Positions 9,439 to 39,270 of a stretch of 53,725 nt of DNA are shown in pieces. The stretch covers positions 1 through 53,725 of the forward strand of contig CAJPGC010000033.1 in NCBI GenBank assembly GCA_905339405.1, written 5' to 3'. The position numbers and the translations under genes were made by a program. How positions within the stretch are numbered: position 1 is the stretch's first letter; each line of letters begins with the position of its first letter. The notes below the pieces were generated by a model. The model was not told the DNA's origin and made no database searches. It saw nothing but the letters and a program-made list of their open reading frames with translations. The DNA is from an uncultured bacterium. GTDB taxonomy: Bacteria > Desulfobacterota > GWC2-55-46.

Positions 9439-10143
9439 ATGGGCGCAGCTGGAAGCGGTTCACCGGGACACAGGAGAAGGCTGAGGGAGAGGTTCCTGAG
9501 GTCGTCCCTCGAAGGGTTCCACGACTACGAGGTCGTGGAGCTCCTCTTGACGTTCGCCATACCCCGGCGGGACGTCAAGCCGCTCGCGAAGGCGCTTGTG
9601 GCGAGGTTCAAGGGGCTCTCGGGCATCTTCGAGGCCTCAGCGGAGGAGCTTCGCGAGGTGGCCGGGTGCGGGGAAAGGAGCGTAGAGCTCTTCGCTCTCC
9701 TGAAAGAAGTTGCCTCCGCCTACGTCAACGAGAAGGGCGCTGCCCGCCCTCCCGTGAAGTCGGCCGCCGACGCAGTCTGCTTCGTCAACGACCATTCGAA
9801 AGAGTACGGGGAAGCCGCAGAGAGGCTCTTCGCTCTTTTCCTCAATTCAAAGAACGAGATACTGGGCATCGAGCTTTTGCACGAAGGGGATATGAACGTG
9901 GCGCTCGTGCCGCCTCGCGCCGTGATGGAGAAGGCCTTCGGCCATAACGCGCGCTCGATAATATTCGTGCATACGGCGGACGGTCATGCCGCGCCTTCAA
10001 AAGGGGAGAAGGCGCTTGCCGAAGGGCTGGAAGCCGCGGCCCGCTCGATCGACATACTCGTCCACGATCACATAATAGTGGGGAAGAAAAACTTCCTCAG
10101 CGCGAGGGACCTGGGCTGGCTGAGGCCCGGACCCTGCCCCTGA
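9439..10143 (+). CDS. RadC-like protein with a degenerate JAMM motif
   Basis: The 234-residue protein has the RadC architecture: an N-terminal HhH region (LRERFLRSSLEGFHDYEVVE, IPRRDVKPLAKAL) and a C-terminal RadC/JAB domain. In RadC the metal site reads HNHPSGDPxPSxxD. Here it reads HTADGHAAPSKGE, losing the second His, the Ser-Gly of the loop and the Asp, so metal-dependent hydrolase activity is unlikely. The intact paralogue at 38557-39270 keeps every residue. The ATG follows GGAAGGGAAAG. It lies 13 bases after the slipin gene, and its end overlaps the convergent thiD by 47 bases. Confidence 0.8.
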   Translation: MGAAGSGSPGHRRRLRERFLRSSLEGFHDYEVVELLLTFAIPRRDVKPLAKALVARFKGLSGIFEASAEELREVAGCGERSVELFALLKEVASAYVNEKGAARPPVKSAADAVCFVNDHSKEYGEAAERLFALFLNSKNEILGIELLHEGDMNVALVPPRAVMEKAFGHNARSIIFVHTADGHAAPSKGEKALAEGLEAAARSIDILVHDHIIVGKKNFLSARDLGWLRPGPCP

Positions 10144-36423: not shown

Positions 36424-37011
36424 ATGCCTTTTGACGACCTATCCAAAGACGAACTCATAAGGATACTCGAACTCGTCGAGATTTCGCAGAAATGCAAGAG
36501 CCCGGCGTCCGTGAAGAGCCTCATACTGGCCTCAAAGGACGTCCTCGAGGCCGAGTTTGCGGTATGCGGTTTTACTACCAGGGGCCCGCAGCCCGTGGTC
36601 AGCGACTTCGTGAACGGGAACTACCCGGAGGAATGGGTCAGGCGCTATACCGAAGAGAACCTCTGCCTGCATGACCCGGTAGTGCGTTTTCATTCCAAAT
36701 ACATGCTCACGCAGTTCTGGTCGGATGTTTTCGTTTTTTACGATTACCCGCAGGCCAACGCGCTCATCAGCGACGCCAGAGACTACGGCCTCAAATTCGG
36801 CATGACAGGGGCCGTGTACGCGCCCGAAAGAGACGAAGTCGCCCTGTTCACCTTCGCAAGCGACAGGAACAGGTTCAAGAAGCATCACAAAAGACTGCTC
36901 GAGATCATGATGACACATTTTTACAATGCTTTGAGCAAGAGTTTCATTGCGTTGCCAAGAGTCGGGGAAGCGAACAGCGGGAAGGAAGTCTTGGGCTTAA
37001 CACGCATTTGA
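36424..37011 (+). CDS. LuxR-type autoinducer-binding protein lacking the HTH domain
   Basis: The 195-residue protein matches the LuxR autoinducer-binding domain. It keeps the ligand-pocket pattern WVRRYTEENLCLHDPVV (Trp, Tyr and Asp-Pro of the signal site) and LTQFWSD. It ends at NSGKEVLGLTRI, which aligns with the first strand of the HTH of the next gene (LSNREKEVLCWM) and then stops. The DNA-binding domain is therefore missing. It could bind AHL without binding DNA, like the anti-activator TrlR of Agrobacterium. No frame in the following bases restores the HTH. A GGAGCGG site lies before the ATG. Confidence 0.85.
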   Translation: MPFDDLSKDELIRILELVEISQKCKSPASVKSLILASKDVLEAEFAVCGFTTRGPQPVVSDFVNGNYPEEWVRRYTEENLCLHDPVVRFHSKYMLTQFWSDVFVFYDYPQANALISDARDYGLKFGMTGAVYAPERDEVALFTFASDRNRFKKHHKRLLEIMMTHFYNALSKSFIALPRVGEANSGKEVLGLTRI

Positions 37012-37024
37012 GGGGGTGGCAGAC

Positions 37025-37756
37025 ATGGTCTACAAGGATTTCACCAAAAGAGAGCTTGCGGAGATACTGGACATCATACAGGCCGCCCTGGCCTGCAAGT
37101 CGGAGAAGGATGTCATCTCGGTCACCGGCAAGGTAATGAGTCTCGTGTCCGCGGACATGGGCGTGTGCGCGCTGGGGGAGATCGACTCGGGCCGCCTCCT
37201 CAAGGTGGCCAACCACAACTGGCCGACGGAATGGGCGCTCATGTACACCGGCGAGGAACTCTATAAAAAGGACCCGGTGTTCCTCTTTAACTACGAGCAC
37301 TTCAAGTCATTCGAATGGAAAGACGCCACTGAGCGCTTCTCTGAAACGCCCAACAAGAACATCATGAACAGGGCCTGCGAGTTCAGGCTCAAATACGGCA
37401 TATCGAGCGGGATTTGCGGAGGCAGCTCGAAAGGCAGCATATTCTCCTTCGCGAGCGAACGGAACAGGTTCAGCAGCCACCACTTGAAGATACTCGACCT
37501 GCTCACGCCTCATATACACCAGGCCCTTGTGAAGACCCTCGATAACCAGACCAGGGCGGACATCGACCTCTCCAACAGGGAAAAAGAAGTCCTGTGCTGG
37601 ATGAGGGAAGGCAAAACGAACTGGGAGATATCCATGATCCTCAACATCAGCGAGAGGACCGTGAAGTTCCACGTTCAGAACATCGAGCGCAAGCTTAATG
37701 CTGTAAATAAAGCTCATGCGATTGCGATAGCGATGGATAACGGTCTGGTAGTGTGA
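37025..37756 (+). CDS. LuxR-family quorum-sensing transcription factor
   Basis: This is a complete LuxR-type regulator. The ligand domain has the Trp, Tyr and Asp-Pro pattern in WPTEWALMYTGEELYKKDPV and a Trp in SFEWKD. The C-terminal HTH reads LSNREKEVLCWMREGKTNWE and ISERTVKFHVQNIERKL, typical of this family. The ATG at 37025 is chosen: AGGGGG lies 8 bases upstream. It starts 13 bases after the truncated paralogue and its end overlaps the convergent luxI by 62 bases. It should bind the lux-box-like palindrome at 38476-38491 when occupied by AHL. Confidence 0.93.
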   Translation: MVYKDFTKRELAEILDIIQAALACKSEKDVISVTGKVMSLVSADMGVCALGEIDSGRLLKVANHNWPTEWALMYTGEELYKKDPVFLFNYEHFKSFEWKDATERFSETPNKNIMNRACEFRLKYGISSGICGGSSKGSIFSFASERNRFSSHHLKILDLLTPHIHQALVKTLDNQTRADIDLSNREKEVLCWMREGKTNWEISMILNISERTVKFHVQNIERKLNAVNKAHAIAIAMDNGLVV

Positions 37757-38363
37757 CCATCCACCTGTAATAATCCGGCTTCTTGACGTGCGCCGTTTCC
37801 TCGAACTCGCGCCAGTCAAGCATACATACAGCGGCCTTGACGCCGTCGGGCATGGTCACAAAGTCGCCGAAGGCCTCGACCGGAAGACATCCGAGCCGCA
37901 GGACCCTGAAACAACGGTTGTCCACGACCATTGCCGAATACCTTACCCCTTTCAGCAGATTCCAGTGGTACAACCCTTTATAAAGAATGCTTGTTACGTT
38001 CGGGGCATACTTGCTTGAGCGGTATTCCTTCTTTACGCAAAGCCTCGTTATCTCGGCCACATCGCTCGTACGCCGTATTTTCTTGTCCTTGGGCATCATG
38101 CAGGCGAACTCCTTGTCCAGCATGAACAAGTTCGGAGGCTGTATGATTCTGAGGCTGCCCATGAGCTCCATTTCATGGGTGAATACGCCGATCATCTCGG
38201 ATGTGTCGTCGTAGCTGTCGACTTCCATCCTGCCGGGGAGTTTCGGCACCCAGCCGAGTTCCTCCGAAAAGACCTCGTGCCTCAGTTTCCAAGCCATCTC
38301 GAACTCTTCGGGAGCGGAGATGGTTTTTACGATGCAATTTTCTTCCTGGAATATCAGCTCCAT
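37695..38363 (-). CDS. Acyl-homoserine-lactone synthase (LuxI family)
   Basis: The 222-residue LuxI-type synthase makes an AHL signal from S-adenosylmethionine and an acyl-ACP. Conserved residues are Arg28, Phe32 and Trp38 in RHEVFSEELGW, then Glu47, Asp49 and Asp52 in EVDSYDD, Arg72 in SLRIIQ, and Glu104 and Arg107 in EITRLCVK. The tail after 190 is family-like but not decisive for acyl chain length. AAGGGAGGTGCC precedes the ATG. Its 3' end overlaps luxR by 62 bases. Its upstream gap holds the lux-box palindrome shared with radC. Confidence 0.92.
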   Translation of the reverse strand: MELIFQEENCIVKTISAPEEFEMAWKLRHEVFSEELGWVPKLPGRMEVDSYDDTSEMIGVFTHEMELMGSLRIIQPPNLFMLDKEFACMMPKDKKIRRTSDVAEITRLCVKKEYRSSKYAPNVTSILYKGLYHWNLLKGVRYSAMVVDNRCFRVLRLGCLPVEAFGDFVTMPDGVKAAVCMLDWREFEETAHVKKPDYYRWMVTLPDRYPSLSQSHELYLQH

Positions 38364-38475
38364 GCCGGCACCTCCCTTTTCCCACTTTGTAGCAGGTGAG
38401 GGCCTCTGGATGTAACTGGCATGGCTAGCAGTTTAAAAAATCGTGTAAATGGTTTAGAATATAAGGTTTTGCCTC

Positions 38476-38491
38476 CTGTACCATGGTACAG
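38476..38491. promoter_or_regulatory. Lux-box-like operator palindrome
   Basis: CTGTACCATGGTACAG is a perfect 16-bp palindrome with the same CTGTA/TACAG ends as known lux boxes. Its centre lies 43.5 bases before the predicted radC start and about 121 bases before the luxI start codon. LuxR binding here is inferred. Confidence 0.7.
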
Positions 38492-38514
38492 TCGCCTTCA
38501 ACCTGCATTTGTAA

Positions 38515-38520
38515 TAGAAT
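38515..38520 (+). promoter_or_regulatory. Predicted -10 element of the radC promoter
   Basis: TAGAAT lies 23 bases after the palindrome end, with no consensus -35. The palindrome would occupy that place, as in LuxR-activated class II promoters centred near -42.5. The predicted start is near 38527. Confidence 0.5.
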
Positions 38521-38556
38521 CGCCGCTATCTGGAATTTCAGCACGCGGAGGCAGCA

Positions 38557-39270
38557 TTGGACAGAAGCGTTTCGGGCGGCACCCCGGGAGGCGGGAGGCC
38601 AGCGTCTTCAGGAAGGGCGCGTCAGGGGGCATTGGCGGCTCTCAAGCCCGTTGATATGCTTGAGCGTCTCTTAAGCTACGCGGTGAAGGAAAAGGAGCTG
38701 AAGGACGCTTCCACCGGGCTCATGAAGCGGTTCAAGGGGCTCCGCGGCGTGCTTGACGCGAGCCATGAGGAGCTGAAAGACTCGGGCCTGGTAGGCGAGA
38801 GCGGGGCCGTATTCCTTAAGTTCGTGAAAGAGGCGGCCGGGGTCTACCTGAAAGAGCGGATGATGGGGAAGGACGCGCTCGGCAACATTAAGTGCGTGCT
38901 CGACTATTTGAACCTGACGCTCTCGGGCGAGCGCATAGAGAAGTTCCTCGCCATATACCTTGGTCCGGGGAACGAGGTGCTCTCCGTCGACGTCCTGCAC
39001 GAGGGCACGATAAACCAGACGGTAGTGTACCCGAGGAAGGCAATCGAAAGGGCTTTCAGGCATAAGGCCTCGGGCGTAATATTCGTGCACAACCACCCCA
39101 GCGGGGACCCGGCCCCCTCTCAGATGGACAGGCAGCTCGCCAGGACCCTCGAAGGCGCCTCAGCCGCCGTAGACCTCGAGGTCGTCGACCATATCGTCAT
39201 AGGGAAGAACAGGCATTTCAGCGCAAGGGAAAACGGCTGGATGGCCGCCGGAAGGACGCGGAAGGCTTAA
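38557..39270 (+). CDS. radC: RadC-family JAB/JAMM protein, intact metal site
   Basis: The 237-residue protein has a shortened HhH part (LLSYAVKEKELKDASTGLMK) and the C-terminal RadC domain with an intact JAMM motif HNHPSGDPAPSQMD, plus EVVDHIVIGKNRHFSA. RadC was first linked to DNA repair and later to recombination-associated roles. Its exact biochemistry is still unsettled. A TTG start is chosen because GGAGG lies 6 bases before it. It is divergent from luxI across the lux-box palindrome, so it may be quorum-controlled. A degenerate paralogue lies at 9439-10143. Confidence 0.9.
   Translation: MDRSVSGGTPGGGRPASSGRARQGALAALKPVDMLERLLSYAVKEKELKDASTGLMKRFKGLRGVLDASHEELKDSGLVGESGAVFLKFVKEAAGVYLKERMMGKDALGNIKCVLDYLNLTLSGERIEKFLAIYLGPGNEVLSVDVLHEGTINQTVVYPRKAIERAFRHKASGVIFVHNHPSGDPAPSQMDRQLARTLEGASAAVDLEVVDHIVIGKNRHFSARENGWMAAGRTRKA

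Follow-up and report, generated by a model that had tools for sequence, protein, structure and literature searches.

The question raised by this locus is which gene the palindrome between luxI and radC serves. The initial annotation of the window (the whole stretch of 53,725 nucleotides analysed here) had placed a perfect 16-bp palindrome in the gap between the two divergently transcribed genes and assigned it to radC, luxI or both. Reading of the sequence located the palindrome, CTGTACCATGGTACAG, at 38476-38491 (no strand; centre 38483.5), as had been described; it is called box B below and is predicted to be the operator through which a LuxR-type protein acts on radC.

Four genes define the setting. 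On the minus strand, luxI (37695-38363) encodes a 222-residue homologue of acyl-homoserine-lactone (AHL) synthases (PF00765, 2.6e-14; LasI, 1.2e-05) in which residues R28, W38, D49, D52, R72, E104 and R107, the signature residues of LuxI proteins, are invariant in the alignment, as expected of a synthase. On the plus strand, luxR2 (37016-37756), the 3′ end of which overlaps that of luxI by 62 bp, encodes a full LuxR-type regulator with an AHL-binding autoinducer domain (PF03472) and a GerE-type HTH (PF00196), the architecture of a receptor in LuxI/LuxR quorum sensing, and its product is predicted to bind box B and a further box described below. Upstream of it, luxR1 (36424-37011, plus strand) encodes a protein of 195 residues with the AHL-binding domain only (PF03472) and no HTH, which is the structure of LuxR proteins of the TrlR/CerN type; by analogy, LuxR1 might damp LuxR2 or form heterodimers with it. 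To the right of the gap, radC (38557-39270, plus strand) encodes a RadC-like JAB-domain protein of 237 residues (PF04002, 3.9e-34; TIGR00608 score above the cut-off; match to 2qlc, 2.7e-20) with the JAB metal-binding motif HNHPSGDPAPSQMD, which places it in the RadC family. The TTG start of radC, which is ATG in a relative (G003, locus L017), follows a directly legible GGAGG ribosome-binding site (38547-38551, plus strand).

Being a perfect palindrome of 16 bp carries no significance by itself in this window, where two were found and 0.85 expected; the weight of box B therefore rests on its sequence type, place and conservation. CTGTACCATGGTACAG is present in a single copy in the window even when three mismatches are allowed (0.08 expected), and it recurs nowhere else exactly in the 2.65-Mb genome, where the next best site has two mismatches. 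Box B is a CT-N12-AG dyad resembling known LuxR-type sites, as a class II lux box should. Its variation across loci is mostly symmetric (pair 4 is A-T in 16 loci and C-G in five), as expected for a dimer site, and pairs 6 and 7 are invariant.

The position of box B relative to radC is that of a class II activator site. Distances are given here from the box centre to the first base of the -10 hexamer; on this measure the lux promoter of V. fischeri, centred at -42.5, has a value of approximately 31 nt. Box B is centred 31 nt before TAGAAT (38515-38520, plus strand), a predicted -10 that departs from TATAAT; the radC start predicted 7 nt further on, at about 38527, puts the centre of the palindrome at -43.5, in agreement with the initial annotation. 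When matches to TATAAT were scored at every offset from box B toward radC (n=25), they peaked at 31-32 nt with a mean of 5.32 out of 6, versus a median of 2.44 elsewhere, and a hexamer with at least five of six matches stood at that distance in 21 of the 25 loci, versus a background of 3.6%; these counts ignore kinship, and the related genomes are, with few exceptions, bins assembled from metagenomes. The spacers between box B and the -10 vary in sequence among loci. The class II reading on the radC side is supported by this 31-32 nt spacing, and also by the fact that box B stays with radC where luxI has been lost.

A second CT-N12-AG box of the form AACTG-N10-CAGTT, overlooked in the initial annotation, occupies 38414-38433 (box A, AACTGGCATGGCTAGCAGTT; no strand) and is predicted to be the operator for luxI and for a second rightward promoter. 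Toward radC, TATAAT matches peak at 5.0 at 31 nt from box A (n=25), at a predicted -10 that reads TAGAAT in the window (38455-38460, plus strand) and TAAAAT in most relatives; 24 of 25 loci have at least five of six matches at 31-32 nt. Toward luxI, the predicted -10 (38386-38391, minus strand) reads TACAAA in the window and TAAAAA in most relatives; it lies at 31-32 nt from box A, where the matches peak at 4.04 (n=25). Only two of 25 loci reach five of six matches on this side because the hexamer is usually TAAAAA, which scores four; for this predicted promoter, it is constancy and not strength that constitutes the evidence. In most relatives the centre of box A is 43-44 nt from the luxI ATG and the -10 ends approximately 6 nt before it, a spacing that suggests a leaderless luxI mRNA; the genus of the window has about 16 nt more before luxI (in the region 38361-38391), carrying GGAGG. 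The distance between the centres of the boxes is 60 bp in the window and in many relatives, 67 to 80 bp in others and still larger in one locus (L014). Upstream sequences contain box A in luxI loci of the family and in more distant luxI loci. It is less symmetric than box B in genomes with two boxes, and the luxI boxes of two single-box relatives (L023, L024) are perfect CTGTCC-N4-GGACAG.

The search of related genomes for the palindrome beside radC, which the initial annotation had proposed, found box B in the luxI-radC gap of nearly all relatives that bear the cluster. The gene order luxR1-luxR2-luxI-radC is kept across the family, a group of uncultured "Deltaproteobacteria", in many genera, as judged by tblastn, and the HTH-less luxR1 stands beside luxI throughout; box B is kept in 25 luxI loci and in four luxR2-radC loci that have no luxI. 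The luxI search covered 30 genomes of the family and found relatives in most of them, as well as in some further families of its order; 26 of the 30 have a match at threshold, the weakest of which are partial and resemble other acyltransferases. The named luxI relatives in the public genome set belong mostly to groundwater "Deltaproteobacteria" bins such as GWA2_54_12. In three genomes of one genus (G005, G006, G007) and one of another (G025), luxI and box A are gone and luxR1 is absent from the stretches read, and box B with its -10 remains before the radC orthologue, with luxR2 just upstream. These losses indicate that box B goes with radC and luxR2, and box A with luxI. In a further genome (G027, locus L025), frameshifts and stop codons interrupt luxI and box B has decayed, possibly a recent loss of the system. 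Three family genomes have luxI with no adjacent radC (L021, L023, L024), and outside the family the two-box gap precedes genes for sensor/receiver or small proteins (L042, L044, L046, L050, L057, L070), so one output gene has apparently been swapped for another, and radC may be regarded as the usual target in the family, not an obligatory one.

Box B is very probably a lux box of LuxR2, from which the AHL-bound regulator most likely activates radC in the class II manner, with luxI controlled separately through box A. The sequences show that there are two boxes, conserved and at fixed spacings, and that luxI, box A and luxR1 have been lost together; from this it may be inferred that LuxR2 binds the boxes, that binding depends on AHL, that the effect is activation rather than repression, and where transcription starts. 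An AHL-bound LuxR2 dimer on box B, at about -43, would adjoin RNA polymerase at the radC promoter and activate transcription from TAGAAT; on the less symmetric box A, LuxR2 would activate luxI and so provide positive feedback. Box A is also at class II distance from the second rightward -10, whose promoter may be a second source of radC transcripts.

The alternative that survives best is nevertheless improbable: LuxR2 on box B might repress, by blocking either the rightward transcript from box A, of which box B would occupy approximately +9 to +25, or the radC promoter itself. However, activators require the class II distance that separates box B from a TATAAT-like hexamer, whereas a pure roadblock would need no fixed distance to a downstream -10.

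Activation of radC also has to be weighed against control of luxI by the same palindrome. The initial annotation had noted a TATATT on the luxI side and suggested that binding at the palindrome would overlap the promoter core there. The hexamer is indeed on the minus strand at 38463-38458, 12 bases from box B, and a weak average -10 signal is found 19-20 nt from box B toward luxI. However, TATATT overlaps the reverse complement of the conserved TAGAAT/TAAAAT region, the rightward -10 that belongs to box A, and the signal tracks box A when the distance between the boxes shifts from 60 to about 80 or more; moreover, on the luxI side of box B, only one of 25 loci has a hexamer with at least five of six matches at the class II distance, the predicted -10 of luxI stands 31-32 nt from box A instead, and box B survives where luxI has been lost. 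Control of luxI from box B is accordingly very unlikely. The assignment of one palindrome to "radC, luxI or both" may be retained for radC and dropped for luxI, and control of both requires two boxes rather than one, since luxI has its own box A with a TAAAAA-type hexamer at 31-32 nt.

It is just as hard to credit that box B acts mainly as an RNA hairpin, a stability or attenuation element in the leader of the box A promoter. In four relatives (L019, L070, G006, G007) the inverted repeat extends far beyond a LuxR site, and G-T wobbles in three loci pair only in the rightward RNA. In the window and its genus, however, shuffling the flanks around a fixed core does not worsen the fold (z 0.14 to 0.95), and pairing in box B drops to about half beyond 16 bp; an RNA function would also leave the fixed distance to TATAAT unexplained, and the box recurs at other promoters. 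The hairpin was therefore rejected for the window, which has no excess pairing, and is favoured only in some relatives; in the four with extended repeats box B may have a second role. Box B of L070, upstream of luxI, lies within an inverted repeat with 20-bp arms, and that of L019 within a similarly extended perfect or near-perfect repeat; binding of a LuxR dimer calls for nothing of such length. An Rfam scan of 18 loci gave three matches, all of them in L010 and below the gathering score.

The probable identity of the regulator is suggested by a comparison with CviR, the best solved relative of LuxR2 (3qp6, 4.4e-33), with which the HTH shares 37 of 57 residues, including GKTNWEI..ILNISERTVKFHV. 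The ideal CviR site is reported to be CTGNCCNNNNGGNCAG (Stauff and Bassler, as cited in PMC12114271). Relative to the site in that form, box B of the window matches eight of ten fixed positions, with two symmetric departures, and box B of L015 matches all ten, as do the luxI boxes of L023 and L024; to the extent of this match, LuxR2 would be expected to bind boxes A and B. Binding of the palindrome by some other regulator is very unlikely, given that box B resembles the site of CviR, the protein that among solved structures has the HTH nearest to that of LuxR2, and that loss of luxI leaves luxR2 and box B side by side.

The genome of the window (G000) has two further copies of radC besides the one linked to luxI. 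A second, divergent copy within the window, at 9505-10131, has 35% identity to the luxI-linked radC and groups with other unlinked copies in the RadC tree. No box at class II spacing was found before the other radC copies examined, including the copy on contig C4 of the window genome. In the RadC tree the box-linked copies cluster, with 7 changes versus 16.4 when shuffled. A dedicated RadC subfamily is not claimed, as these copies fail to form a single clade with support and the bootstrap of the tree was still unstable.

In the 30 genomes of the family, the pattern of box B, N23 and TATAAT, with up to three mismatches, is matched distinctly more often than its reversed control. Loose box patterns without a -10 had 83 matches versus 122 in the control, and AACTG-N10-CAGTT alone had four in each; loose boxes are uninformative about the regulon, and only a box plus a -10 is informative. 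Genes downstream of such sites were named from their sequences. In the window genome, a lux-box-like CTGTACCCTGGTACGG with TTGACA and TATAAT (C26:42296-42340, L152) precedes a gene for a receiver-domain response regulator, and a box plus -10 stands ahead of such a gene in G003 and G024 as well. Another site (C37:10012-10212, minus strand; L151, 1813-1963) has a lux box and -10 followed by approximately 150 nt with no conserved orf; loci of this type end in a terminator-like hairpin about 130-175 nt on and are divergent from a gene for an 84-residue PQ-loop-like protein. They are also present in G003, G024, G026 (with the -10 off the 31-nt register), G027, G028 and G029, and represent a candidate quorum-controlled small RNA, the alignment of which is too uneven for a covariance model.

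Different thresholds for the two boxes are suggested by the lesser symmetry of box A in two-box genomes and its perfection in the single-box L023 and L024, but this is speculation. A fuller scheme may be sketched tentatively, and is doubtful as a whole: the near-perfect box would fire radC at low AHL, the weaker box would set the luxI feedback and the HTH-less LuxR would damp the receptor, in a family-wide AHL circuit that has RadC as its dedicated output and a small RNA and a response regulator elsewhere, while lineages without luxI would eavesdrop with receptor, box and radC.

RadC is widespread and its function is unsettled, and the lux box gives a direct way to ask when radC is needed. The presence of the box before radC throughout the family, even after loss of luxI, points to selection that ties this copy of radC to cell-cell signalling, and radC looks like a conserved direct target of such signalling. 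The paired boxes, one of which is lost together with luxI, are a natural experiment that separates the operator of the synthase from the operator of the target. A full-text literature search gave nine papers that mention radC, quorum sensing and luxI, none of which connects the three in its title or the opening of its abstract, so the remark in the initial annotation that quorum-sensing control of a RadC protein would be unusual stands.

The lux box of Vibrio fischeri adjoins the -35 region, is centred near -42.5 and has the core CTGTA/TACAG, and the window box resembles it in all three respects, but the window has two boxes approximately 60 bp apart in a divergent gap, with radC as the rightward target. 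The general model of class II LuxR promoters is set out in PMC13043044. CviI/CviR of C. violaceum and CsuI/CsuR of C. subtsugae are likewise encoded by convergent luxR and luxI genes that overlap at their 3′ ends (by 80 bp in C. subtsugae versus 62 bp in the window; PMC12114271), and CviR likewise has a 16-bp palindromic site, ideally CTGNCCNNNNGGNCAG, from which the window box differs in having A/T rather than C/G at the fifth position of each half. Unlike either system, the window has an imperfect box for the synthase and a second, perfect box predicted to serve radC, and it encodes an HTH-less LuxR beside the pair. HTH-less LuxR proteins such as TrlR of Agrobacterium and CerN of Cereibacter sphaeroides damp their LuxR partners (PMC11655674); luxR1 resembles their genes in encoding an AHL-binding domain with no HTH and adjoining the gene for a full LuxR, and differs in that an entire family retains it at an unchanged place in the gene order. 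Induction of radC during competence has been described in several bacteria, in which it is dispensable for that process and has an unclear role in transformation (PMC4630621); there, and by prediction here, radC is under a regulated programme, but the control element in the window is an AHL-type lux box beside luxI. The lux-box promoter itself is known, and what is new is radC as a conserved target, the twin boxes and the HTH-less LuxR partner.
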